Of a stretch of 64,000 nucleotides of DNA, positions 35,382 through 51,822 are shown piece after piece. The stretch spans positions 1-64,000 of the forward strand of contig JAFLTO010000015.1 in the NCBI GenBank assembly GCA_022510425.1. The letters are read 5' to 3'. This DNA comes from Muribaculaceae bacterium (GTDB lineage: Bacteria; Bacteroidota; Bacteroidia; Bacteroidales; Muribaculaceae). Numbering within the stretch: position 1 is the first letter of the stretch; each line of letters begins with the position of its first letter. Both the position numbers and the translations under genes were made by a program. Below the pieces are notes generated by a model. It worked only from the letters and a program-made list of their open reading frames with translations. It was not told the DNA's origin and did no database searches.

Positions 35382-35465
35382 CAACGGTGTATTTCCCTTT
35401 AATAATGAACCGTCGTTAGCCTTTGACTTTAAAAACACAAAAAACGCAAAAACTTTCCATATGAA

Positions 35466-35497
35466 TTTGGTGGAATGAAAAATTCTCCCTAAATTTG
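35466..35497 (+). promoter_or_regulatory. Bacteroidetes promoter of tRNA-Phe
   Basis: TTTG-N20-TAAATTTG. Confidence 0.7.
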
Positions 35498-35543
35498 CAC
35501 TCGCAATGCAAAGGAACTATCCTGAAATTGCAAAACATGGCAT

Positions 35544-35616
35544 GGTGTCATAGCTCAGTTGGTAGAGCAAAGGACTGAAAATCCTTGTGTCCCCGGTTCG
35601 ATTCCTGGTGACACCA
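35544..35616 (+). tRNA. tRNA-Phe (GAA)
   Basis: Full cloverleaf, anticodon loop ctGAAaa, acceptor ggtgtca/tgacacc. Confidence 0.95.
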
Positions 35617-35626
35617 CAGAAAACAA

Positions 35627-35659
35627 AACCCAAGTAATTGATTATCAATTACTTGGGTT
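35627..35659 (+). terminator. tRNA-Phe terminator
   Basis: Perfect 16-bp inverted repeat aacccaagtaattgat/atcaattacttgggtt followed by a T-run. Confidence 0.85.
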
Positions 35660-35873
35660 AAATTTTTGTCTTCAACTCTTCAAATTTGAAGGCATTTTGA
35701 AGGCAACTTCAAAAATACTTCAAAAAGTTTCTGAAATCAAAACATGCCGTCACAGCTGGATTTAGCAACCATTTCCATTATTCATCCAAAGAGAGTTTCA
35801 AATAATCTTCGCTTATTTTCTCTTTTTTTCACAAGCTTTCTTTATCTATACTTGATCTATAACTGATTGACAT

Positions 35874-35904
35874 TTTGTCAGATTGTAAAAAATCTGTAAT
35901 TTTG
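35874..35904 (+). promoter_or_regulatory. promoter with no evident gene, overlapped by palindrome TGACATTTTGTCA
   Basis: TTTG-N19-TAATTTTG; palindrome at 35868-35880. Confidence 0.6.
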
Positions 35905-36479
35905 TCTTTACAAGCCTGAACAAAGCCCCAGGTTGGGGATGAGGGAGGGCGAGCAGACATTTTGGGAAAGCGTTTGCTGACACTTGATTCTTGAAGGCAT
36001 AAAATTCGCAGCTTTCAAATCTCAGTCAAGGATGAAGTAACAGCAGATGCCAGCGAATATGATGTATTTGCATGGGAAATGATGTGGACCAACATCGTTT
36101 CCTTGTTCGTATACATATTTTGTTGGTTTCTGCGTAACTCGTTTACTGAGATAGGGTAATGAGAAGACCTTATGCCATAGGACGAGTAACAGTACAGACT
36201 CCTACGCTTTTTTATTTTATAACCTAACATTTTTCATTCTTTTCAGGGGAGTCTATAAGAATTTTTATTTGAAATCCCAGTTCTCCTCTCAATATACCTT
36301 ATTGGAATAAACAACAGGTCTTTGTTTTTCCATTTCCGAATAATAAATAATATAAGCATGCAGCACTTACCCTCTTACTCTCTTCTTACAAATCACATAT
36401 TGTAGAGTTTTCAACCAATAAAATTCTTGTTATAAGGTTCGATTAGGGTAACAGCAAAGGAACCACCGGAATCAATTCT

Positions 36480-36686
36480 CCGTCTTCTTCAGTAGTTAAG
36501 ATCACCGGCATCAACAATGCTGTTTTGATTTCCGGAGGTGAAGGCAAACAATTCCAAATTTATTCAATCGAGGGTCGCCTGATAAAATCTTTCAGGGCAG
36601 AAAGCGATGCTGAAAAAGTGAGCCTTGTACCCGGATGGTATATCGTATTTACCGAAGGAATTTCAGAAAAAGTGATTGTTAAATAA
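36480..36686 (+). pseudogene. orphan C-terminal sorting-like domain of a lost secreted protein
   Basis: Translates to SSVVKITGINNAVLISGGEGKQFQIYSIEGRLIKSFRAESDAEKVSLVPGWYIVFTEGISEKVIVK*, like the C-termini at 40597 and 43459. Confidence 0.8.
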
Positions 36687-36700
36687 AAATTAATCCTGAC

Positions 36701-39700
36701 ATGAAACTATTTTCAACATATAAAAGAACAGCTGCATTTTTTGCTGCTATCCTGACTACAACAGTCCTGTCTATCCCGGCTTTCAGTGCCGTCGGAGATA
36801 CATTAAGCGACAGTTACTTTCAATATGAAGTAACTGATGAAGAAAATTTAACCTGTAAACTCACAGGTCTTCTTAATACTACAGTTACCGGCACCTTAAC
36901 AATTCCATCCTTAGTTTATGACAATTCAAATATCAAGCAATATAAAGTGACTTGTATTGCAAGCAGAGCTTTTGATGGAACCATTATGGGATCTGCCACA
37001 ATAAAAATCGGAGATAATGTGGAAATAATAGAAAGCTATGCATTCAACGGTGTTAAGGCTTTTACAGGTCTCCTAAAAATACCCAATTCTGTAAAAATTA
37101 TAGGAGAATACGCCTTTTATAGTTGTACAGGTTTTGAATCTATAGAATTAGGTGAAAATGTAGAATCTATAGGAAATTATGCTTTCTTTGAATGTTCCGG
37201 ACTTAAGGGTTCACTTATCATTCCTGACAAAGTTAAGACAATTGGGGAAAAAGCTTTCTATCAACTTAATTTTGATGGTAATCTTACTCTTGGGAAAAGT
37301 TTGGAGAACATAGGAGAATCTGCATTTGCCCAAACGAAATTTAAGGGAAATCTTATACTGCCATCAAATTTACAAACCATGGGTACAGATGCTTTCTTTA
37401 GTTGTAATGGTTTTACCGGTTCCTTGGTAATACCTGATGAAATAAAGACAATAGAGGAGGGTGTGTTTGCTAAGTGTTCGGGGTTTAATGGTACGCTTAC
37501 ACTTGGTGAAGGTTTAACACAAATAAAGGCAGGTGCTTTTTATTATTGCTGGTTTACCGGCGATTTGATAATCCCTAAAAACATAAAATCAATTGAAGGC
37601 GAAGCTTTTTACAATGGAAAATATAATAATCTTATTTTACAGAGTAATACAACCTTAGGCGGAGTTTCTACAGGAAGATTTAACAAAAATAAAGTTTTTG
37701 ATAGCATTGATTTTAAATCAATAACTTGTCTGAGTGAACTGCCTCCCTCTGCCGGGGGAGCTGAATTTTCTAATCATATTTACGAGTATGCAGATTTATA
37801 TGTGCCGAAAAACGCTTTTTCAAGATATAGCCAGCATAGTGAATGGAAAAAATTCAGTTTTTTTCACTTTATTGTGCCAGTGTCTTCAGTAACAGTAAAT
37901 TCATCAAAAAATAGTTACAAAGTAGGGGAAACCATAACTTTAACCACTACAGTATCTCCATCGGACGCAACAAAACCACTCGATACGTCTTGGACTTTTT
38001 CAAACAGCATTGTATATCCTAAAGAAAATAATGAAAGCTTTATTGCATGTAATAAAGGTACAGTTGAAATTACTGCTAAAGTAACTAATGAAGTTACCAT
38101 AGGAGGTGTGGAAGGAACAACGACAATAAATATTCAGCCAAGTTATATTGAAGCCGATAAAACTTTCTCAGCCATCAAAGCAGGTCAAACAGCAACTGTT
38201 AAGTTAAATGTGGACGAAAATCTCGATGACACTTTCTCTTATTCCGGTTTTGGATTCAAAATTACATTGCCTACAGGAGTAAAGGTGAAAAGTGTTACAA
38301 CTTCTGAATCTCTTTCTAATTTTACAACCCTATCATCTACAGATAAGGATGGTAACTATATAGTGAATTCTTATGCTTCTGATGCGGTACCCTCTTCAAT
38401 TAAGGAGGCATTCCTAACCCTCACTTTGGAAGCTGAAAAATCGGTTAAAGCCAATAACTTGGCTTCCCTTAAAATTTCAGAAGTGATATTTACTTCTCCG
38501 GAAGCAATGGATATTAATTTCGATGATTCGGAGGAATATACTTTCGAAATTATAAACACTCCTATTACAGATGAAGATATCACTGTAAATAGTTCTGATA
38601 GGGAAGACAACGACAATCTCCCCGACAATGATGAAACAAAACGTGATTTCAATGAGATTTATGTCAATGAGAAAATCACTTATACGGCAGAGGTAGCTGA
38701 AACAGTGACAATAAAGGAACTTAAATGGCAACTCATAGACGACACCGATATTGTTTCAATAAAAGATAATGGAGACAACTCTGTCGACGTAACCGGTCAA
38801 AAATTAGGCACTGCCAAATTGAAGGCGGTATCCGAGGCTTATCCTGAATTCAGTTATGAACTCACGGTTAATGTAATCCCGATGCCGGTAACTGTTCACA
38901 TAAAGGTTCTGGAAAACACCGATCTCAAGAATCTGAATGTGGATGATGAAGTTGAGCTGATATACACCCTTACGCCGGATAATGAATTGTTGACCGGCAA
39001 AATCAACCTCGCCTGGAGGGCAACTTCTGCTACAAATAGCATATCGGTTGAAAATGGAAAGATAACAGCCAAGGCCCTTGGCGATGCCAGTGTCATTCTC
39101 ACAGCTTCTTACGTAAATACATACGCAGCCGACAAATATAAAACCGTACCGAATGATCAGGTAGAAGTAAAAGTAGTACCGGTACCTGCAGACGAAGTTA
39201 CGGTTACTGTAGCTCCTTCTGTGACTGGTAAAGATGCTGAAGTTGTCGTGGGTGAAAGTTTAGAACTTTCCGTAGCTATTTCACCGGATGAAACTTACAC
39301 GGGTCCGGTTGATATCTCATGGAGCTCAGCCGATAATGAAGTGCTCTCCGTAAACGCCGGTGCTGACGGAAAAACTTGCACCGTAACTGCAAAAAAATAC
39401 ACCGAAAATAAGGTGAAAGTAACCGCTACAATCACTTATGATACTGACAAGGTTGTAACCGGTGAAATCGAGGTCACAATTCTTCCAAAGGCAGCAGAAT
39501 CAGTTAATATAACTGCAGAATTTTTAAAGAGTTGTACACATACCGATCATATAAAAGTAGGTGAAGAACTGCAGTTCATAGCCGAGGTACTTCCTGAAAT
39601 CACAACTTTCAAAGATGTGGAATGGAAAGTGGAAGACCCTGAATATGCTTCAATTACCCCTGATGGTATTTTGACAGCCATCAAGGCCGGGACAACCAAT

Positions 39701-40597
39701 GTGGTTGCAACTGTGAAGAATACTTCAGTAACTAAGAAATTTGCCCTCTTTATAACTGAAGGTATCCAAGGCGATGCCAATGACAATGGCAGCGTAAATA
39801 TCGCAGACGTAGTGGCTATCCGTAATGAGGTACTTAAAAACGAAGAATCGGAAAATGCCAACTTCTGCCATGCAAATGCTGATATCGACGGCGCCAACGG
39901 GATTGAAGTGTTAGATCAGGCAGCTGTACTCAACTATGTATTGACCGGTAGCTTTAACGCTACTTCTGAAAACACACGCGCCGCAAATGTAATCACAGGG
40001 TGCCTCACTGCTGATAATTTCGATTCTCAAAAGGGAAAGACCGACATCAGCGTTGCACTTGACAATCCTTCAGATTTCATCATACTCCAGGCCGATATCA
40101 TGATTCCTGCAGGTATGTGTGTGGAAGAAATTAAAACCGGCAAGCAAGCTGACGCCCACAATCTTTTCTACAACTATATCGAAGAGAACATTCTTAGGAT
40201 TGTGCTTGATTCACCTTACAATCAGAACTTCAGCAACAGCAATGGATCTTTGTTCTCTCTCTCGGTTTCGATGGATCAAAATTGCGGTGACCTGCAAATA
40301 AGCAATATTGTGGCTGCCGATAGAAATATCAACCGTCGTGAACTTACTTTCAGAGGTGGCCATGACGATGGTTCTACTTCAGTAAGTATGGAAACTGAAG
40401 ACGGATTTAAAGTCATGACAGTACAAGGTGGTATAACCATACTTAACGGTCAAGGTAAAAATATCTCTATTTATTCTATTGACGGAAAACTGATAAAATC
40501 GCTCAATCCGGTTAAAGACAGAGAAACTCTCTATCTTGCTCCCGGCGTTTATGCAGTGATAAAGGATAATCAGTCTGTCAAAGTAAACGTGAAATAA
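36701..40597 (+). CDS. BspA-like LRR / cohesin-like / Ig-like / dockerin-like secreted protein
   Basis: LRR_5-like repeats, Big-type Ig repeats, GDANDNGSVNIADVVAIRNEVL dockerin-like segment, C-terminal sorting-like domain. Confidence 0.8.
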   Translation: MKLFSTYKRTAAFFAAILTTTVLSIPAFSAVGDTLSDSYFQYEVTDEENLTCKLTGLLNTTVTGTLTIPSLVYDNSNIKQYKVTCIASRAFDGTIMGSATIKIGDNVEIIESYAFNGVKAFTGLLKIPNSVKIIGEYAFYSCTGFESIELGENVESIGNYAFFECSGLKGSLIIPDKVKTIGEKAFYQLNFDGNLTLGKSLENIGESAFAQTKFKGNLILPSNLQTMGTDAFFSCNGFTGSLVIPDEIKTIEEGVFAKCSGFNGTLTLGEGLTQIKAGAFYYCWFTGDLIIPKNIKSIEGEAFYNGKYNNLILQSNTTLGGVSTGRFNKNKVFDSIDFKSITCLSELPPSAGGAEFSNHIYEYADLYVPKNAFSRYSQHSEWKKFSFFHFIVPVSSVTVNSSKNSYKVGETITLTTTVSPSDATKPLDTSWTFSNSIVYPKENNESFIACNKGTVEITAKVTNEVTIGGVEGTTTINIQPSYIEADKTFSAIKAGQTATVKLNVDENLDDTFSYSGFGFKITLPTGVKVKSVTTSESLSNFTTLSSTDKDGNYIVNSYASDAVPSSIKEAFLTLTLEAEKSVKANNLASLKISEVIFTSPEAMDINFDDSEEYTFEIINTPITDEDITVNSSDREDNDNLPDNDETKRDFNEIYVNEKITYTAEVAETVTIKELKWQLIDDTDIVSIKDNGDNSVDVTGQKLGTAKLKAVSEAYPEFSYELTVNVIPMPVTVHIKVLENTDLKNLNVDDEVELIYTLTPDNELLTGKINLAWRATSATNSISVENGKITAKALGDASVILTASYVNTYAADKYKTVPNDQVEVKVVPVPADEVTVTVAPSVTGKDAEVVVGESLELSVAISPDETYTGPVDISWSSADNEVLSVNAGADGKTCTVTAKKYTENKVKVTATITYDTDKVVTGEIEVTILPKAAESVNITAEFLKSCTHTDHIKVGEELQFIAEVLPEITTFKDVEWKVEDPEYASITPDGILTAIKAGTTNVVATVKNTSVTKKFALFITEGIQGDANDNGSVNIADVVAIRNEVLKNEESENANFCHANADIDGANGIEVLDQAAVLNYVLTGSFNATSENTRAANVITGCLTADNFDSQKGKTDISVALDNPSDFIILQADIMIPAGMCVEEIKTGKQADAHNLFYNYIEENILRIVLDSPYNQNFSNSNGSLFSLSVSMDQNCGDLQISNIVAADRNINRRELTFRGGHDDGSTSVSMETEDGFKVMTVQGGITILNGQGKNISIYSIDGKLIKSLNPVKDRETLYLAPGVYAVIKDNQSVKVNVK

Positions 40598-40666
40598 AAT
40601 TAAGTCGTAAATTTTCAAAGAGGAAATAAAACGGTAAAAATAAAACTCATAAATATATTTGATTTT

Positions 40667-43459
40667 ATGAAAATCAATAGTCTGATAAGTAAATTTTCAC
40701 TGTTTGGGGCTCTCTTTCTCTCCAACACAGCCTTTATATACGCCCAAGACACGAATGTGCAGAAGCCTGAGTTCTCTGTTGATAATTTCTCAATCACAGC
40801 CGGGAGTTCTGTAAACAATATTGGGGTGAACATCAGTTTGCCACAGAATACACAATCTATCACTTATAGCGGTTTTCAGTTTGATATAACTCTCCCGGAA
40901 GGAATCACTTTGGACAATATATCGGCCAATTCCAATCTTTCAGGCATTACACTACGGAGTGCAAAACTAAACACCGGCAACACATGGAGAGTGGCAGCAT
41001 TGAATTACGAAGCCAATACCACGTATACCGTGACCCAAGAGGTTGTATATCTCAATCTGTCAGCCGATAAAACTGTTGCAGCAACCACCGATGCGAAAAT
41101 ATCCTTCACCGATGCATTGTTGGTTGCTCAGGATGCTACAGATATTGATTGCTCCAATTCCTCCTCTAATTTCACAATAGTGAACGTCCCGATCACAGGC
41201 ATAGAGATTGTTCCCGGCAATTCTTCAGCCGGCTCCTCCTCTCATGCCAACAATCAAATATACATTGACGAAGAAATTGAATATACCGTAAAAATTACTC
41301 CTTCCAATGCTACAATAACTGATCTGGAATGGACACTCACCCAGACTGATGATTTCGTTTCTTCTTCAGATATCACCAATGGTAAGAAACTTACAGGCTT
41401 GAAATTCGGCGAAGCTACCTTGACAGCAAAGTCATCTATATATAATGTCACAGGGGAATTTAAGGTGAATGTAGTGCCAATGCCTATTGAAAAGGTAACT
41501 GTTACTGCCGGGAATGTATCATTGGAACCGGAGGGCACCACAACTCTTACGGCTGTAGTGACACCAGCCGAGAAATACACCGGACCGGTCTCTATAACAT
41601 GGTCGGCAGATAATTCAGGTCATGTTTCCGTGAATCCGACCACAGGTGTTGTGACCGCTGTATCTGTCGGCAAGGCTGTGGTGACCGTTACTGCAACTTA
41701 CGATAACGGTAAAACCGCTACCGGAACTATTGAAATCACGGTTATTCCTATTTCTTCCGATAAGGTTACGGTAAAGGTTTCATCCTCTGATGGCGATGCC
41801 TCAAGCGACGGCTCTATTTCTATTGTACCAGGTAAATCTAAACAGCTGAACAGCTATATCTCACACGATACCAAATATACCGGGGAAATTACCACAACTT
41901 GGACTTCCTCAAATTCGAGTGTATTATCTGTTGATAATGCCGGATTAATAACTGCTAACAAATATGACAACCAAACCGTGACTGTGACTTCTACCGTGAA
42001 GTATGGAAATTATACTGTAACCGGCAGTATCAAAGTTAATATCACGCAGGTACCCATTGAATCTGTGACCGCCTCCGCTCAAAAGACAGAAATCAATATA
42101 GGGGAAAGCATCAATCTTTCAGCCGCAGCTTCTCCTGCCACTACTCTTACAGGTAATGTTAATTACACCTGGAAGACCGCAAATACCGACTTAATAACTC
42201 TCGGCTCCGATGGCAAAGTGACCGGTAAAGCTCCCGGAACTGCAACTATTACCGTTACAGCAGCCAACAATGTAAGCTCGAAGGAGGGTATAATACAAAT
42301 AAAAGTGCTTGCCACACCGGCAGAGTCTATTGAAATACAAACGCTATCTCTGGAAAGATATGCTAACAAAGATATTATCAAACTCGGTGAAACTTTAAAC
42401 TTCAAGGCAACCATATATCCGGAAAATGCCACTTACAAAGATGTGGAATGGTCGGTTGACAATCCTTCCATAGCCACCCTAACCTCAACTACCGGCGAAT
42501 ACGACATGATTTTGACTGCTAAAAGCTTAGGAAATGTAGTGGTGACTGCAAAAGTGAAAGCTACTCCAACAATATTAGCTACCTATAATATCTCTGTGGT
42601 AAAAGAGGTTCTCGGTGACGCCAACGACAATGGGATTGTCAATATCTCTGACCCACTGGCTGTAGGTAACGAAATCGTGGCCCTGAAGAATAATACTGTA
42701 TCAAAAAATGCAAAATTCAGTTTCATAAATGCTGACGTGAATATAGATAAAATCATTGATGTAACCGACCAGGCTCTTATCACGGATATGCTCTACGGTC
42801 TCTTTGATCCTTATCAACCCACCACGCGGACCCTCAACAACGATTTAATCTATTTTTCCGACTCTCTTGTTGCAGATGATTTCAAGGTGAATGAAGGAAA
42901 TGTGGAAATCGGGTTTAAACTCGACAACCCTTCCGATTACATCATCCTACAAGCTACAATTCATCTTCCGGAAAATATGAGGTTGTCTGACATTGCGAAA
43001 GGCCCGCAGGCTGCAAATCATGAATTTATTTACAGTATTAATGAAACCAACGACCTTACAATAGTTATCTATGCAATGCCGAACACATCTTTTTCCAACC
43101 TCTCAGGAAATCTGTTCTCTATTGTGGCAGAGGCATCCGATAACACCGGCGATATCTTTGCGGAAGATATAATCGTTGCCGACAATTCCCGCAGAAAGTA
43201 TGTATTGGATTTCAGAGGCGGCCACAATCAAGACACCACAGGCATCTCATCGGTTGAGACAGAATCTTTCTCTGTGATCAGTTCTCACGGCAGTCTGACA
43301 ATTATTAATGCTGCCGATAGGTTAGTAAACATATATTCTGTAAACGGTCAGCTGGTGAAATCTTTAGTGCCGGCGTCACGAAATGAGTCCGTGTATCTTT
43401 CTCCGGGCATTTACATCGTTAATTCAGGCGAGTCAACTTTCAAAGTAATTGTAAAATAA
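40667..43459 (+). CDS. cohesin-like / Ig-like / dockerin-like secreted protein
   Basis: 930 aa; GDANDNGIVNISDPLAVGNEIV; C-terminal YSVNGQLVKSL. Confidence 0.8.
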   Translation: MKINSLISKFSLFGALFLSNTAFIYAQDTNVQKPEFSVDNFSITAGSSVNNIGVNISLPQNTQSITYSGFQFDITLPEGITLDNISANSNLSGITLRSAKLNTGNTWRVAALNYEANTTYTVTQEVVYLNLSADKTVAATTDAKISFTDALLVAQDATDIDCSNSSSNFTIVNVPITGIEIVPGNSSAGSSSHANNQIYIDEEIEYTVKITPSNATITDLEWTLTQTDDFVSSSDITNGKKLTGLKFGEATLTAKSSIYNVTGEFKVNVVPMPIEKVTVTAGNVSLEPEGTTTLTAVVTPAEKYTGPVSITWSADNSGHVSVNPTTGVVTAVSVGKAVVTVTATYDNGKTATGTIEITVIPISSDKVTVKVSSSDGDASSDGSISIVPGKSKQLNSYISHDTKYTGEITTTWTSSNSSVLSVDNAGLITANKYDNQTVTVTSTVKYGNYTVTGSIKVNITQVPIESVTASAQKTEINIGESINLSAAASPATTLTGNVNYTWKTANTDLITLGSDGKVTGKAPGTATITVTAANNVSSKEGIIQIKVLATPAESIEIQTLSLERYANKDIIKLGETLNFKATIYPENATYKDVEWSVDNPSIATLTSTTGEYDMILTAKSLGNVVVTAKVKATPTILATYNISVVKEVLGDANDNGIVNISDPLAVGNEIVALKNNTVSKNAKFSFINADVNIDKIIDVTDQALITDMLYGLFDPYQPTTRTLNNDLIYFSDSLVADDFKVNEGNVEIGFKLDNPSDYIILQATIHLPENMRLSDIAKGPQAANHEFIYSINETNDLTIVIYAMPNTSFSNLSGNLFSIVAEASDNTGDIFAEDIIVADNSRRKYVLDFRGGHNQDTTGISSVETESFSVISSHGSLTIINAADRLVNIYSVNGQLVKSLVPASRNESVYLSPGIYIVNSGESTFKVIVK

Positions 43460-43524
43460 AAATTTATAAAAAGGGTATGCCATGGCTTTAATGACATATC
43501 CTTGTCTTTTTTTATAACCAAAAC

Positions 43525-46500
43525 ATGAAACGCTTTTTCCTTAATTTGAAACTGTTGATGGTAATGCTGTTGTTACCGGCAGTTTCCTTAGCGAATGCTC
43601 AAAGTGAGGGTAATTTATCCGTTTCTTTTTCTTCCGGGAACATCTCTATTGATTCCGGGGAGGATCAGGAAATAGGAATAGTGGTTTCCAATCCTTCAGC
43701 CATTAAATTTATAGGTTTTCAGGGTGACCTGGTAATTCCGGTGGGTCTTGAACTCAAATCTCTTTCCTTGGGGAGTGCCCTTCAAGAATCAGGTTTTAGT
43801 CTCCGTCCCATAGTCACCAATCCGGTGACCGGCAACGTGAGATTGACCCTTACTGATTTCAGCCTTGTCGGTTCGGAAATCACTTCGGGAGAAATAATAA
43901 AACTGACCTTGGTAACTACCGCCGGAGTAAATCCCGCGAATGTCACTCTTTCTCTCCGTGACATCCTTTTCACCGCTGAGGATGGAAGTGATATGAACTT
44001 AACGGGCTCACCTGCCACGGACGTGGATATAAAAGTGCCAGCTTCGGGAATTTCTTTGGATGCAAAAGACCTTACTATAGAAATCAGGGAATCAGTGTAC
44101 CTTACAGCAACAGTCACTCCCTCCAATTCTTCTGACACAGATATTATATGGACTTCAGATGCTCCCGGGATTGCATCCGTAGACAACGGTAAAGTGACCG
44201 GTGTGTCTGTCGGTACGGCCAATATAACCGCAACTTGTGGCAATGTGTTTGCCACATGCAAAGTTACGGTAAAATATCCGATGCCTACTTCTATAGCTGT
44301 CTCTTCCGAATCGCTTGCATTAAAAGAGGGTGAGACATCAAATCTGACATATACTCTTACTCCTTCAGATGCCGTCACAACCGTGACATGGACTTCTGCT
44401 GACTCTTCCGTTGCAACAGTCGATAATACCGGCAAGGTGACAGCCATCAAGGAGGGTCAGACTTCGATAACCGTGACCACGGCCGAAGGTCAGACAGCTA
44501 CCTGTACCGTGAAGGTTTCAAAGAATATAGTCATAGTTTCGAACATAACTGTTACTCCTTCTACAGCTCAGGTTAAGGTCGGTGAGACAGCTACTCTGAC
44601 TGCCACAGTCACTCCGGACAACGCAACTGACAAGACTGTGACATGGTCTACTTCCGACGCTTCTGTTGCAACTGTGGTTAATGGTGTGGTTACAGGGGTA
44701 AAGGTCGGGTCTGTGACTATTACAGCAACAGCCTCTAACGGCAAGAGTGCTTCGGCCACCGTGACCGTTACTCCTCCCTCTCCCACCGCGATTTCGGTTT
44801 CTCCGACGACACTCGCTCTCAAGGAGGGTGAGGACGGTCAGCTGACAGCCACACTTACTCCGGCTGATGCTGCCACCACCCTCACATGGACAAGCAGTGA
44901 TCCTTCAATCGCTACTGTGGACAACACCGGCAAGGTTACTGCCCTCAAGGAGGGTCAGGCAGAAATAACGGTTTCAACTGCCGAAGGTCAGACAGCAACT
45001 TGTTCGGTTACTGTTTCAAAGGATATAATCGTAGTTTCGAACATAACTGTTACTCCTTCTACAGCCCAGGTTCAGGTCGGAAAGACTATCACACTCACTG
45101 CAACCGTTTCGCCCGAGAACGCTACAGACAAGTCTGTAACATGGTCAATTTCTGACGCATCAGTGGCAACCGTCAACAACGGAGTAGTGACAGGGGTCAA
45201 GGCCGGCGTGGTTACAATAACTGCAACCGCCTCAAACGGCAAGAGTGCTTCGGCCACCGTGACCATTACTCCTCCCTCTCCTACCGCGATTTCGGTTTCC
45301 CCCACAACCCTCGCTCTCAAGGAGGGTGAGGACGGTCAGCTGACAGCCACACTTACTCCTTCAGATGCTTCCACCACCCTAACCTGGACAAGCAGTGGTC
45401 CTTCAATCGCTACTGTGGACAACACCGGCAAGGTTACTGCCCTCAAGGAGGGTCAGGCAGAAATAACGGTTTCAACTGCCGAAGGACAGACAGCAACTTG
45501 TTCGGTTACTGTTTCAAAGGATATAATCGTTGTTTCGAACATAACTGTTACTCCTTCTACAACTCAGGTGAAGGTCGGTGAAACCGTAACCCTCACTGCT
45601 ACCGTAACTCCGGACAACGCAACTGACAAGACTGTAACATGGTCAACTTCTGACGCATCAGTGGCAACCGTCAACAACGGAGTAGTGACAGGGGTCAAGG
45701 CCGGCGTGGTTACAATAACAGCAACCGCCTCAAACGGCAAGAGTGCTTCGGCAACCGTGACCGTTACTCCTCCCTCTCCCACCGCGATTTCGGTTTCTCC
45801 GACGACACTTGCTCTCAAGGAAGGTGAGACAGGTCAGCTGACAGCCACACTGACTCCGGCTGATGCTGCCACCACACTTACCTGGACAAGCAGCAATCCT
45901 GCAATTGCAACAGTCGATAACATCGGTAAGGTAATAGCCCTCAAGGAGGGTGAAACCTTAATTACCATTGAAACAGACAATGGTTTTTCAGCTACCGTTA
46001 CAGTCAAGGTAAGCAATAATATAGTGGATACTACAGATATAATCCTCAGTGCGGAAGACATATATCTTCTTGCAAAAACCTCCTATAGCCTCATAGCCCA
46101 GATAATACCGGATAATGCTACCAACAGACAAGTGACATGGAGAAGCAACCATGAGGAAATCGCCGAAGTTAATGCCGATGGTGTAGTGACCGGAATTAAA
46201 GAAGGAAAAGCCATAATAACTGCAATATGCGGCACTGCTTCAGCTAATTGCCAGGTAACGGTTTTCAGTCCAATAGAAATAACTGTCGACCCGGCAGAGG
46301 ACACTACCCAAGGAAACGAGGATGATTCTCCTGCTGATAATACAGAAAACGGAGGTGCAATTATCGGCAATGATGTTTACGTAAGGATCGGTCAGACTGC
46401 CTCGATAAACCTTACATTGCCCGATAATCTTTCAACCGTACCCCGGTTAAAATGGTCGCTTGAAGCCGGAGGCGAAAAGCTTGTAGATTTAAATGTCAAT

Positions 46501-48084
46501 GAAAATACTTTGGGTGCTTCTATCACCGGTAAACAACAAGGTGAAACTGCATATAACGTTTCATTGTGGGACAACGATGATGTTATAGTCAATGGCAAGA
46601 TAACTGTCATTGCAGAGACTCCCATGACATCTCTGACGGTAAATCCCTCCGCCATTGATTTTATGCTCGGAGATCAACCCATACAGCTTGAAACACAATT
46701 TACCCCTGAGAATGCTTCAAACACCTCTATAGTATGGATAAGCAGTAACCCGGATGTGGCGACCGTATCACCTGAAGGTATGGTGACACCGATTGCCGAA
46801 GGCGAATGTCTCATTACTGCCACTGCCAATGATGGAAGCGGGTTGAGCGCAACCTGTCAGGTGACTGTAACTTCTATTCCTGAAATCACAATCGAGGTTT
46901 CACATTCTCCGGACTTCATCACGGTAAATTCAGGCGACAACGTGACTTTATGGGTGAATGCAGCCGGAGGAAATCCCGAAGGATGGAGCTTCCTATGGAC
47001 TTCAGAGGGTCAGGTAATAGCTAATGAAAATTCTATTTCCTTTATTGCCGTGAATGACTATGATACTGCACTTCAGACTATCTATACAGTAAACATAACC
47101 AATGAATTCAATGGCCTGATAGTTTACTCAGAAAACTTCAACTTTACAGTAGAAGTATTGCCCGTCATTATCCTCCCTGATGAAGAAGACCTCGATATTT
47201 CAGGAATCAATGTATCGGATGATTCTTCATTGATCAAAATCAGAGAAGGAAATAATCTCACTTTGAGCGTCAAGGAACCGACAGGTGGTTTTGTTGACAA
47301 TTGGGATTACCTTTGGAGGGACAATAATCAGACAATAGGAACGGGAAGGACAGTAGAGACCACGGCCACTATGCCGGCAGGTAGTAGCAAAGAGATTTTT
47401 GAAAACCTCTATTCTGTAACCCTCTCTAATTATAGTCCGGAAGGTGAATTATGGGCAGAAAAAACAATTTATCTTAAACCTGTAAACGTTTACCGTCGTC
47501 CTCAGACTCCGGCTCAATTGCTTCGTAAAGGCAATGGCAGTTCCTGCACATTTATTACCATGATGGATCTCAACGACAGTCAGATAAGTGAAAACGGATA
47601 TAATTTCGTGTATGGATATATTGATCCTGAAGGTGAAAACCATGTCTTGACATCCACACCTAACCGATATTGCCATATCACATCATCAATCTACCATAAT
47701 AGTGCCAACAAATTCTGGGTATATGCCACATGGACTTACGAAGATGGAAGTGTGGTAAGCAGCGGACTTCGATATCTGAACGGTGAAGCAGATGAAAAAT
47801 TCGATGCTTCCGATTTTAGCCTGCAAACCAAGGGACTCGACGCAACTAATACGGATAACTGGATAAGGAATTATAATGGATCGATTCTTATAAATGTCGA
47901 AAGTAATGACGATGTAACAGTCACCGTACATACCTTCTCCGGCAGATGTGTGTATTCGCAAAGTTTTGAAGGAAGTGGCGTGATAAGCAAAATCCTTAAT
48001 AAGGAGAATCTGGTTCCGGATTTCTATATCGTGACTGTGATTTCCGGTAAAAACAAGGTGTCGAAAAAAGTTGTAATACGTTAA
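43525..48084 (+). CDS. giant Big_2 Ig-like repeat secreted protein
   Basis: 1519 aa with tandem bacterial Ig-like domains. Confidence 0.85.
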   Translation: MKRFFLNLKLLMVMLLLPAVSLANAQSEGNLSVSFSSGNISIDSGEDQEIGIVVSNPSAIKFIGFQGDLVIPVGLELKSLSLGSALQESGFSLRPIVTNPVTGNVRLTLTDFSLVGSEITSGEIIKLTLVTTAGVNPANVTLSLRDILFTAEDGSDMNLTGSPATDVDIKVPASGISLDAKDLTIEIRESVYLTATVTPSNSSDTDIIWTSDAPGIASVDNGKVTGVSVGTANITATCGNVFATCKVTVKYPMPTSIAVSSESLALKEGETSNLTYTLTPSDAVTTVTWTSADSSVATVDNTGKVTAIKEGQTSITVTTAEGQTATCTVKVSKNIVIVSNITVTPSTAQVKVGETATLTATVTPDNATDKTVTWSTSDASVATVVNGVVTGVKVGSVTITATASNGKSASATVTVTPPSPTAISVSPTTLALKEGEDGQLTATLTPADAATTLTWTSSDPSIATVDNTGKVTALKEGQAEITVSTAEGQTATCSVTVSKDIIVVSNITVTPSTAQVQVGKTITLTATVSPENATDKSVTWSISDASVATVNNGVVTGVKAGVVTITATASNGKSASATVTITPPSPTAISVSPTTLALKEGEDGQLTATLTPSDASTTLTWTSSGPSIATVDNTGKVTALKEGQAEITVSTAEGQTATCSVTVSKDIIVVSNITVTPSTTQVKVGETVTLTATVTPDNATDKTVTWSTSDASVATVNNGVVTGVKAGVVTITATASNGKSASATVTVTPPSPTAISVSPTTLALKEGETGQLTATLTPADAATTLTWTSSNPAIATVDNIGKVIALKEGETLITIETDNGFSATVTVKVSNNIVDTTDIILSAEDIYLLAKTSYSLIAQIIPDNATNRQVTWRSNHEEIAEVNADGVVTGIKEGKAIITAICGTASANCQVTVFSPIEITVDPAEDTTQGNEDDSPADNTENGGAIIGNDVYVRIGQTASINLTLPDNLSTVPRLKWSLEAGGEKLVDLNVNENTLGASITGKQQGETAYNVSLWDNDDVIVNGKITVIAETPMTSLTVNPSAIDFMLGDQPIQLETQFTPENASNTSIVWISSNPDVATVSPEGMVTPIAEGECLITATANDGSGLSATCQVTVTSIPEITIEVSHSPDFITVNSGDNVTLWVNAAGGNPEGWSFLWTSEGQVIANENSISFIAVNDYDTALQTIYTVNITNEFNGLIVYSENFNFTVEVLPVIILPDEEDLDISGINVSDDSSLIKIREGNNLTLSVKEPTGGFVDNWDYLWRDNNQTIGTGRTVETTATMPAGSSKEIFENLYSVTLSNYSPEGELWAEKTIYLKPVNVYRRPQTPAQLLRKGNGSSCTFITMMDLNDSQISENGYNFVYGYIDPEGENHVLTSTPNRYCHITSSIYHNSANKFWVYATWTYEDGSVVSSGLRYLNGEADEKFDASDFSLQTKGLDATNTDNWIRNYNGSILINVESNDDVTVTVHTFSGRCVYSQSFEGSGVISKILNKENLVPDFYIVTVISGKNKVSKKVVIR
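44289..46012 (+). repeat. tandem repeat, 498-bp (166-aa) period
   Basis: gtttcgaacataactgttactccttct at 44536, 45034 and 45532, exactly 498 bp apart. Confidence 0.9.
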
Positions 48085-48097
48085 ACTGAAGATCCAT

Positions 48098-49057
48098 ATG
48101 AAAAGTTTAATCAAATATACATTAGTGGCACTATCGGCAACGGCAGTAGCCACTCCCCTTTCAGCTCAGACTGAGGAGGAAGAAGAAATCATAATCTATG
48201 AGATTAAAGAAACTTCCGGTTCAGACAAGACCGAGGGATCTATCTTTTCAATAAAACTTAGTGCCAATATCGGTTTGGGCAATACTCTCCAAGCCAAATA
48301 TTCTCTTAACTCGATGACTCAGAAGTCAAATTCCGGAGATTATTCAGTGGAATTCGGCTGGAAGTTCTGGGAAAAGAAAAACAACAGTCTCGAATTGTTT
48401 GCAGGTCTTGGGTATAGCCCGGTGTCAACAAAACTTAACATTGGCGACATCAGCTATAATTACAATGCGCCTGCTTCGGCTGATATGGACGGAGACACTT
48501 ACATCCGGTATTACGAGCTGAAAGATTTGGAACAAAAGATTTCCTTGAGCCGGCTTACCATACCTCTTTATCTAAGATACACCTTTAAATGCAACGATCT
48601 GATCGGTATTTACGGGGATTTAGGTTTCAGACTGGGATTTCCGGTAAATTCTTCAATCTCTTCCATAAAAGGGAGTTCCTATAGCTATGGTATTTATCCG
48701 CAATATGAGGACCTGAAGATTGATGAAAGTTATCTTAATGATTTCGGCCAGACAAACCTTGAAGACAGCTATAAGTCAAAACCTGACCATAATTCCTTCT
48801 CCGCTTCTTTCCTTGTGGGAGCCGGAGTGGAATTCAATATCATAAGGCAACTTTCTTTAGGGGTAGGAGTGAGATATGATCTGGGATTTGCCAACTTATA
48901 TAAAAACAAAGATATCTCCGGCAAATTCACTTCCGAAACAGCTCCTGTGACCTATACAGTTAAGGATGGACAGACCATCAAACCCTTAAGTGACTGGTTA
49001 AAATCTTCCAAGTTGTCACAAATAGCAATCAATATAGCTTTGACCTATAGATTTTAA
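48098..49057 (+). CDS. outer membrane beta-barrel protein
   Basis: 319 aa, signal peptide, C-terminal aromatic residue (LTYRF). Confidence 0.8.
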   Translation: MKSLIKYTLVALSATAVATPLSAQTEEEEEIIIYEIKETSGSDKTEGSIFSIKLSANIGLGNTLQAKYSLNSMTQKSNSGDYSVEFGWKFWEKKNNSLELFAGLGYSPVSTKLNIGDISYNYNAPASADMDGDTYIRYYELKDLEQKISLSRLTIPLYLRYTFKCNDLIGIYGDLGFRLGFPVNSSISSIKGSSYSYGIYPQYEDLKIDESYLNDFGQTNLEDSYKSKPDHNSFSASFLVGAGVEFNIIRQLSLGVGVRYDLGFANLYKNKDISGKFTSETAPVTYTVKDGQTIKPLSDWLKSSKLSQIAINIALTYRF

Positions 49058-49156
49058 TTAAGGTATTGATTTCTCATGGAGAGGGAGCCTCTTGGCTTCC
49101 TTTCTTTATTTTACAATTGCTGTTCGATAAAATTTCAAATCAATAAATTTACTGGG

Positions 49157-49196
49157 CTCAATCGTAGAAATAAAGCGGTTGAGTCCAAATTTTTTA
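49157..49196 (+). terminator. hairpin terminator
   Basis: gggctcaatcg/cggttgagtcc with T-run; G-U pairs on +. Confidence 0.65.
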
Positions 49197-49209
49197 AATT
49201 GCAAGCCCT

Positions 49210-49416
49210 TCAATCAAAAAGGGAAGGTTGCGGAGGTGGATTATTAGAATTTTCAAGAATAATTTCCCAGTCTTTTTCAGGGTGATTGAAAAGGCTGTAA
49301 AAATCCACATAATACATCATGTTTATCCTTACCATAGTGGCAAGTCCCGAGAAACTCCATTTACGTCTGAGACCTTTCTGCATGACAATAAGCAGGAGAT
49401 TTGCTATCAAAGTCAC
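49210..49416 (-). mobile_element. IS4-like transposase C-terminal remnant
   Basis: KGLRRKWSFSGLATMVRINMMYYVDFYSLFNHPEK resembles Bacteroidetes IS transposase C-termini. Confidence 0.55.
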
Positions 49417-49858
49417 CCAAATCTACCTTGACTCCTTTGACAATGAACAGATAGATGAGGGGAAGTATACAGGAACAACTTCAATGAGTGTTGAAGGTAT
49501 CTGGCAAGGATTGAAAGTTTTTGAATCAACTGACATTGATAGAAATTCTTTCCGTAATGGAACCATGAAAGGAATTAAGCGTACCGTCAGAACCAATGGA
49601 AAATGTTTAGGACATAGGAAAGGTATAAACGGTAAAGAACTGTTAGGATATATTGACGCAAGAAAAGAGATTTATGTTCCCTCTTATAATTGGGTACTGG
49701 AGAATAAATGTCAGGAACAAATTAAGAAGATCAGAATAATGTCACAATCTAAACCAGTAATTCTTTTGGATTAAGATACTAATGATGATGTAGAGAATCC
49801 GACCAAGCCATTATCCCATGCTTCTCTAATCAAGAAATTTATTGAGGAAAACAAATGA
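49405..49858 (+). pseudogene. DUF6939-like protein, 5'-truncated with an in-frame TAA
   Basis: TSMSVEGIWQGLKVFE...MKGIKRTVR...LGHRKG..GKELLGYIDARKEIYVPSYNWVLE...VILLD[TAA]DTNDDVENPTKPLSHASLIKKFIEENK*. Confidence 0.7.
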
Positions 49859-50124: not shown

Positions 50125-50427
50125 ATGAAACTGATAGAACTGAATATAGAGAAAATCTATGAACTTTGCCGTAAATATAAGGTAAAGACACTTTCCGTGT
50201 TTGGTTCTATCCTGACCGACAGGTTCAATGACGAGAGCGATGTGGATTTCTCTGCAACTTTCTATCCGGAAGAAGATCCTCTTGTTTCTGGAGATAATTT
50301 TATAAATCTTTATATGGAATTAGAAAAATTGATGGGCAGGAAAATTGATTTAGTTTCAGAAGAAGCAATTCGGAACAAATATTTTAAAGAAGAACTTGAA
50401 GAAACCAAACAATTAATATATGGATAG
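50125..50427 (+). CDS. MNT nucleotidyltransferase (MntA-like antitoxin)
   Basis: GSX10DXD motif: GSILTDRFNDESDVD. Confidence 0.88.
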   Translation: MKLIELNIEKIYELCRKYKVKTLSVFGSILTDRFNDESDVDFSATFYPEEDPLVSGDNFINLYMELEKLMGRKIDLVSEEAIRNKYFKEELEETKQLIYG

Positions 50428-50761
50428 GAAACTCAAGAAATATTTAGAGGATATAAGACTGGCCATTGAAGACATCGAATCTTTTTTGGCTCAAAGGCCA
50501 AGAATGTACTCAGTATTTCTTGAAGATTCTATGTTCAGAAGAGCTATAGAAAGAGAAATTGGAATTATAGGAGAGGCAATGAACCAAATATTAAAACTTG
50601 ACCCAAATATTTCAATCACTGATGCAAGAAAAATAGTCGGTACAAGAAATTATGTAATTCATGCCTATGATACTCTTCGCCCAGATATGATTTGGGATAT
50701 TGTTATTAATGATATACCGATACTTAAGGAAGAGGTAAATGCATTATTATCTGAAAACTAA
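50420..50761 (+). CDS. HEPN domain protein (HepT-like toxin)
   Basis: RX4HXY motif RNYVIHAY; overlaps the MNT gene. Confidence 0.88.
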   Translation: MDRKLKKYLEDIRLAIEDIESFLAQRPRMYSVFLEDSMFRRAIEREIGIIGEAMNQILKLDPNISITDARKIVGTRNYVIHAYDTLRPDMIWDIVINDIPILKEEVNALLSEN

Positions 50762-50949
50762 TTTATGGTAGTTTTCCAATTATTTTTGTTACTTTTGTAA
50801 TTGGGAAATGTGTCAGAATGATTAGACATAAATTCCGAAGAGAACAATAAACATTTATTAACAAATACATTCTGTTTAAACTGAGGTTTAAACCAGACAA
50901 AAATTAGGTAACAATACACTCACTAACTGCTTAGTTGGGATAAAAGAAA

Positions 50950-51065
50950 GGTGTTATAGCTCAGTTGGTTGTCTCTGAAAGATGAGCGAAGCGAGTCTTT
51001 TAGAGACCGAAGAGAGCAAAGGACTGAAAATCCTTGTGTCCCCGGTTCGATTCCTGGTGACACCA
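50950..51065 (+). tRNA. tRNA-Phe(GAA)-like gene with a 43-bp D-loop insertion (probable pseudogene)
   Basis: Matches 35544-35616 except one acceptor-stem change (C to T, still able to form G-U) and insertion 50970-51012; D, anticodon, T and acceptor arms retained. Confidence 0.85.
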
Positions 51066-51166
51066 CATAGAAAAACCTAATTTGTTGTTATATATCAAAT
51101 TAGATTTTTGTTGTATTTAAAAAATGTCATTTTCGGTCTGCAACGTGACCATGGTTGAAAAATCTG

Positions 51167-51382
51167 ATGGAAAACAAGGAAGTTCTCGAGTTTGTGACAT
51201 ACTGTATAAGTAAGTTGGGTCAGTTCCTAAACATGTCCCAACGAGATGTTTATATACGATTAAAAAAATCAGGTATCCTTGACGGGTATATCATTCACTG
51301 TTACGATATACTCCACACCTTTGGTTCACGTTATCTGATGGAAGACATAACTGAATATATGAGGGAGAAAGGTGTTCTATGA
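51167..51382 (+). CDS. DUF3791 domain protein
   Basis: Small helical protein immediately before a DUF3990-like gene. Confidence 0.65.
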   Translation: MENKEVLEFVTYCISKLGQFLNMSQRDVYIRLKKSGILDGYIIHCYDILHTFGSRYLMEDITEYMREKGVL

Positions 51383-51822
51383 TACTTTACCACACGTCAT
51401 ACACCACGATAGAAAAACCAGACATTTCACACTCACGGGATTTTCTTGATTTCGGTAAAGGTTTTTACCTTACCCATTTACGGGAACAGGGAGAAAGATA
51501 TGGTGTCAGGTTTACAAGACGTGGGAAAGATAGTTGGTTGAACATCTATGATTTCGATTATAGTGACACAGACTGGAAAGTATTGAGATTTGAAACTTAC
51601 GACAAGGAATGGTTGGACTTTGTGTCAAAATGTAGGGTTGGATTGGACTGTTCTGACTATGACATGGTTGTGGGAGGTATTGCGGATGACAAGGTCATCA
51701 GGACACTAGACAGATATTTCAACGGAGAAATTAGTGAGGATGAAACACTGGGACTGTTGAATATGAAAGACCCAATATCCAGTATTGTATCAGGTCACAG
51801 GAAATGTTGGACAGTTGTCTGA
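51379..51822 (+). CDS. DUF3990-like (ADP-ribosyltransferase-fold) protein
   Basis: LYHTSYTTIEKPDISHSRDFLDFGKGFYLT. Confidence 0.75.
   Translation: MILYHTSYTTIEKPDISHSRDFLDFGKGFYLTHLREQGERYGVRFTRRGKDSWLNIYDFDYSDTDWKVLRFETYDKEWLDFVSKCRVGLDCSDYDMVVGGIADDKVIRTLDRYFNGEISEDETLGLLNMKDPISSIVSGHRKCWTVV

Follow-up and report, generated by a model that had tools for sequence, protein, structure and literature searches.

Why would a genome carry, besides an intact tRNA-Phe gene, a second copy whose D-loop is expanded by a long hairpin? The question is raised by a locus in the window, a 64,000-nucleotide stretch of Muribaculaceae DNA (contig JAFLTO010000015.1). Reading of the sequence bore out the first-pass annotation of a tRNA-Phe(GAA) copy with a 43-bp hairpin insertion in the D-loop at 50950..51065 (plus strand). 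The insert (tgtctctgaaagatgagcgaagcgagtcttttagagaccgaag; 50970..51012, plus strand) is placed between D-loop position 20 and A21 and consists of the hairpin GTCTCTGAAAGATGAGC-GAA-GCGAGTCTTTTAGAGAC followed by CGAAG. The hairpin itself is real, but its stem exceeds the 12 bp first assigned to it: 13 bp are followed by a tandem GA/GA mismatch and by 2 bp that close a GAA loop. Folding of the insert alone as DNA gave a z-score of -4.0, with 0 of 200 shuffles folding equally well.

The intact tRNA-Phe(GAA) lies at 35544..35617 (plus strand) and is listed by both ARAGORN and Rfam, each of which missed the hairpin copy. As had been noted from the letters, the two differ in the acceptor stem by a single change, C to T at position 6, which leaves a T.G pair in an acceptor that otherwise pairs normally. 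The AT-rich hairpin terminator described downstream is present at about 51078-51112, and the reported lack of a promoter just upstream also held: there is no TAnnTTTG box within 90 bp upstream of the hairpin copy, and the native promoter of the 35544 copy, TAAATTTG, is found 54 bp ahead of it.

The full 118-bp copy was used to query the DNA of 100 relatives. It matched full-length relatives that carry the insert, including one from another family (G081, Barnesiella), and also a copy elsewhere in the same genome, which is a tRNA-Met(CAT). With a covariance model (R1) built from three isotypes, which scores the window copy at 130 bits, more of these hairpin-bearing tRNAs (hp-tRNAs) were found in Bacteroidales, and a DNA pattern search added Parabacteroides, Phocaeicola and Coprobacter secundus 177. 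The family comprises 25 loci in 23 Bacteroidales genomes, with the isotypes Phe, Met, Lys(CTT), Lys(TTT) and Gly(CCC). Three loci belong to the window's own genome, where the genome-wide search for the 43-mer proposed earlier gave no other full copy but two diverged hp-tRNAs, Met(CAT) (contig C1, 10373-10488) and Gly (contig C15, 2229-2334). A GACTnnnAATC anticodon arm, considered for a while to be common to all isotypes, was dropped as a hallmark once Gly(CCC) had been found. In a sample of 398 genomes of the phylum, no hp-tRNA was found outside the Bacteroidales at a threshold of 1e-18, which is strict, so that weak or short types may be missed. Viral contigs contained no hp-tRNA, and plasmid and phage collections yielded ordinary tRNA 3'-half matches only; the matching 'plasmids' that were inspected resemble chromosomal contigs. 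A match in Neptuniibacter (L115) was put down to chance and one in 'Merdimonas' (L125) is likely to stem from a mis-binned Bacteroidales contig.

The genomic context of the family shows a recurrent arrangement, from which we conclude with high confidence that the hp-tRNA represents the right attachment site (attR) of an island integrated into a tRNA gene by a tyrosine recombinase. An intact tRNA of the same isotype is located 1.6-19 kb upstream, on the same strand, in 14 of the 14 contigs that reach both ends; in G001 the upstream tRNA is Lys and the hp-tRNA is Phe, which counts against the reading. In complete members an integrase of ~400 amino acids (with the domains Arm-DNA-bind_5, Phage_int_SAM_5 and Phage_integrase) starts within about 200 bp after the intact tRNA. 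Downstream of it are genes for large unclassified proteins, a DUF3871 protein and one resembling RadC, along with cargo of various kinds; the island proteins that were scanned included none recognised as belonging to conjugation. Pairs of arm-like repeats, spaced by 12 bp, occur at both ends of the element, and their sequences vary together per element (GTGTAAACC in most Phe and Lys members, GTTTTAACC in Met and GTGTCAACC in Gly). The 54 bases at the 3' side of the tRNA are identical between partners in 7 of 11 pairs, including that of the window, and in the rest the identity is interrupted by mutations or offset in count. Directly behind the hp-tRNA of G001 and that of G499 comes the left end of an element, as in the attP junction of a circle or in a tandem array. 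We also observed, about 1-19 bp ahead of most hp-tRNAs, a common motif, similar to AACTnnnCTGATTCATAA, which extends into the 5' strand of the acceptor.

The association could be predicted as well, by searching with the integrase alone and then looking for an hp-tRNA at the end of the element. Integrases found beside tRNA-Lys(TTT) in G276 and G116 belong to elements that both terminate in an hp-tRNA-Lys. Likewise, an integrase beside tRNA-Gly(CCC) on contig C11 of the window's genome led, via a search with the Gly gene, to the hp-tRNA-Gly on C15 mentioned above, bringing the hp-tRNAs predicted and then found to three. A clean empty site seen from two sides was found neither in the Barnesiella relatives, where synteny is lost, nor via the flank of G132, for which close relatives are too few.

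In the window, the sequence behind the hp-tRNA (51067..51369, plus strand, including the AT-rich terminator) is 92.4% identical over 304 bp to that directly after an intact tRNA-Phe in the relative G024, and this flank is therefore native to the host; the comparison covers the 3' side only, as the G024 contig begins at the tRNA. On the other side, 35431-35508, upstream of the intact tRNA-Phe, matches the sequence upstream of tRNA-Phe in relatives. In a test named beforehand, lack of other insert copies and of an empty allele was to weaken the idea of a mobile element; relatives of the insert do exist, though only inside tRNA mimics, and G024 supplies the intact tRNA-Phe with the same flank.

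Towards its right end the element contains two cargo genes, encoding an MNT-type nucleotidyltransferase (antitoxin-like; 50125..50427; Pfam Polbeta/NTP_transf_2) and a HepT-like ribonuclease (50420..50761; Pfam PF01934), relatives of which are also found immediately upstream of the hp-tRNA-Phe in G001 and G081. These are followed by the right-end arm repeats GTTTAAACT and GTTTAAACC (50874..50894), which have the 12 bp spacing seen in other members and at left ends, and which start 83 and 71 bp ahead of tRNA position 8. Further upstream, at 49403..49774, a remnant of an integrase C-terminus (49409-49462, VTQIYLDSFDNEQID) runs into a DUF6939 gene (Pfam and sequence comparison; all these features on the plus strand). 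The remnant measures 18 amino acids, 13 of which are identical to residues 378-395 of the integrase of G210, and 49409-49458 also matches integrase-gene DNA of other family members. Judged from this 18-residue C-terminal remnant of its integrase, the element in the window is old and eroded. Another MNT gene, the start of which is nearly identical, is found at 61196-61513. Other neighbours include a DUF3990 gene (51379-51822) in the native tRNA-Phe flank, apparently preceded by a small ORF, and three adjacent minus-strand genes (53413-58504) with repeated motifs of the type EKEYLEEYRACLxDD...RRLLxRLA that form one BLASTP cluster.

The interval between the two tRNA copies (35618..49402, plus strand) encodes BspA-type LRR/Big_2 proteins (36701-48084) and an OMP (48098-49057), as assigned with Pfam, and neither left arms nor an intact integrase were recognised in it. 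In G248, two flanks of tRNA-Phe 3' ends match the flank at 35600-35709. One of them lies behind a mere 15-bp piece of the tRNA-Phe 3' end (L104, 543-560), so that this piece shares its flank with the intact tRNA of the window, which suggests that a second type of element is stacked at tRNA-Phe. Because left arms are lacking and the flank matches G248, the 15.4 kb between the window tRNAs probably hold more than one insertion and are composite. Since the left end has no recognisable arms or integrase, the window hp-tRNA-Phe is paired with the 35544 copy partly by analogy.

The sequences show how such a scar is built. A tyrosine-recombinase island splits the tRNA gene, and the left end of the island brings a new 3' half and a terminator, by which the host tRNA stays intact; the 35544 copy would be this reconstituted tRNA on the attL side. 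The right end carries the pair of arm repeats together with a 5' half that imitates a tRNA and contains the D-loop hairpin, in the window the element-supplied stretch 50950..51012 (acceptor 5' strand GGTGTTA, TAGCTCAGTTGGT and the hairpin insert). This half is joined to the displaced 3' half of the host gene, which runs from the D-stem 3' strand to the 3' end (51013..51067; both on the plus strand) and forms the attL/attR direct repeat. The same junction in the circular form would be attP. The crossover would be located in the anticodon arm, the customary place for integrases of this kind; those that target tRNAs commonly recombine within the anticodon loop (PMC8371274).

The hairpin has recognisable rules. 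Its position is constant across the family, between D-loop positions 20 and 21, and three architectures occur. Types A and B have a D-loop of 50-51 nt with the common core AAAG-(A)T-GA-GC-loop-GC-GA-R-CTTT and an outer 6 bp that is variable yet paired, whereas type C is a plain hairpin of 11-12 bp in a D-loop of 39-41 nt. The loops read C-GNA-G or C-GNNA-G in most members. In the alignment, 90.5% of the cells of the whole structure are paired, versus 74.9% in shuffles, and 151 cells are changed on both sides, versus 52 in shuffles, counts that are not independent events since the rows are related; at the third pair of the hairpin stem A-U, C-G, U-A and G-C all occur. This covariation supports that the hairpin truly forms, be it as a cruciform, in a single strand or as RNA. 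When folded as DNA, neither strand was consistently better (15 vs 10) and no strand preference was apparent. Around the hairpin of L035 (contig C17 of G000, about 13.4-13.7 kb) there are dense palindromic TTCAGTGGCTCCGCCACTGA repeats, with the same GAGCGAAGCGAG core in the hairpin.

What the hairpin is kept for is a separate question. A small palindromic mobile element that jumped into an existing tRNA-Phe gene, one of the readings offered initially, would account for the palindromic nature of the insert. Yet across five isotypes and numerous lineages the insert occupies one place in the D-loop, at the right ends of islands, its stem sequences differ between members, and apart from short core matches no copies were found outside tRNAs in genome-wide and collection searches. 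On these grounds we rejected this origin as scarcely credible, so that of the initial idea the involvement of a mobile element stands and the jumping palindrome does not. It is also rather improbable that the hairpin is a passive fossil, which entered one ancestral attP and has merely been inherited, with template switching instead of selection keeping the stem. Decayed copies (in Coprobacter, Parabacteroides and G102) would fit such a history, as would the hp-tRNA-Met of G132 (L133, 11992-12107), the core of which is inverted and the stem perfected, as a template switch or a local inversion would produce. However, conserved mismatches (A.C and the tandem GA) persist, the hairpin is kept in every element that has both ends, and the two spacing classes are held across lineages.

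More has to be weighed for an expressed, functional RNA, a tRNA with a fifth arm or a tRNA-like regulator carried by the island, for instance as a back-up resistant to tRNA-cutting enzymes. The insert occupies the very site at which a tRNA can accommodate additional bases, and hardly any variation is seen in the D-arm 5' strand. Both observations speak against a reading as DNA only and would follow just as well from an RNA role. In addition, the hairpin covaries, tandem GA and GNA/GNNA loop are conserved in most members, the RNA fold of the whole window copy reaches a z-score of -4.5, and an MNT-HepT pair adjoins three of the Phe copies. On the other hand, the TAnnTTTG box is present in 0 of 22 hp-tRNAs versus 9 of 11 intact partners. 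Relative to the tRNA of the host itself, 28 of 77 positions in the acceptor 5' strand have changed, versus 2 of 143 for positions 8-20; position 1-72 is unpaired in 10 of 30 aligned tRNAs and the D-stem 3' strand is broken in some members. Neither the absence of the box nor the drift of the acceptor would be expected of a tRNA gene maintained for use in translation. We thus regard a functional RNA as unlikely; the D-loop expansion pointed out at the start is a real, conserved structure, and its reading as a functional or processed tRNA is weakened by the same two features.

The missing promoter box and the acceptor drift lead us to read the hairpin mainly as a part of a DNA recombination site, and we infer that hairpin and conserved D-arm stretch would belong to the site of the element. 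Hairpin and nearly invariant TAGCTCAGTTGGT would then be structural parts of this site, the hairpin being extruded or folded between arm sites and core and kept for site function or directionality, and the attR product would be at most weakly transcribed and not required as a working tRNA. Between tRNA position 8 and the nearer of the right arms, distances group around 40, 60 and 70 bp, and about 11 bp separate the two insert-length classes. These steps are close to a helical turn, but with few independent classes they are suggestive only. As a whole, the explanation by an attR scar in which the hairpin serves at the DNA level is probably correct. That attP even depends on the extruded or single-strand-folded hairpin in the tRNA mimic, as a structure-dependent site of the lambda type, is a tentative and rather doubtful extension. 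If true, attP would work only in a given DNA state (the supercoiled circle or the transferred strand), a new way of controlling integration and directionality.

These results delimit, in gut Bacteroidales, a family of islands that target tRNA genes, and a search of the open-licence literature gave no description of attachment sites with a hairpin in a tRNA D-loop, nor of DUF3871 islands. With the hp-tRNA as a sequence signature, mostly skipped by standard tRNA finders, the right ends of such islands can now be mapped. The results also raise the question of why an attachment site would retain, within a tRNA mimic, a hairpin that covaries, and whether this hairpin is read as DNA or as RNA.

In usual tRNA-targeted islands the distal site normally holds a 3' fragment of the tRNA only. 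The hp-tRNA elements share with tRNA-targeted islands and ICEs that use lambda-type integrases the integrase directly after the tRNA, the direct repeat of the tRNA 3' part, the reconstituted tRNA on the integrase side and the arm-type repeats at both ends, but differ in supplying a tRNA-like 5' half with a conserved D-loop hairpin. The integrase presumably resembles the CTnDOT/NBU-type integrases of Bacteroides, with which it has the arm-binding, SAM-like and catalytic domains of a tyrosine recombinase in common. Within the Bacteroidota, the 10K island of Riemerella is an example of a tRNA-targeted island (PMC6764341). A conserved imperfect hairpin within an attachment site for a tyrosine recombinase is also found in integron attC and in the attP of CTXphi (PMC4792948, PMC3089051); in contrast to these, the hairpin of the hp-tRNAs lies beside the presumed core and is not the core itself. 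The carrier is thus an ordinary integrase island, and the unusual part is the conserved, structured tRNA mimic.
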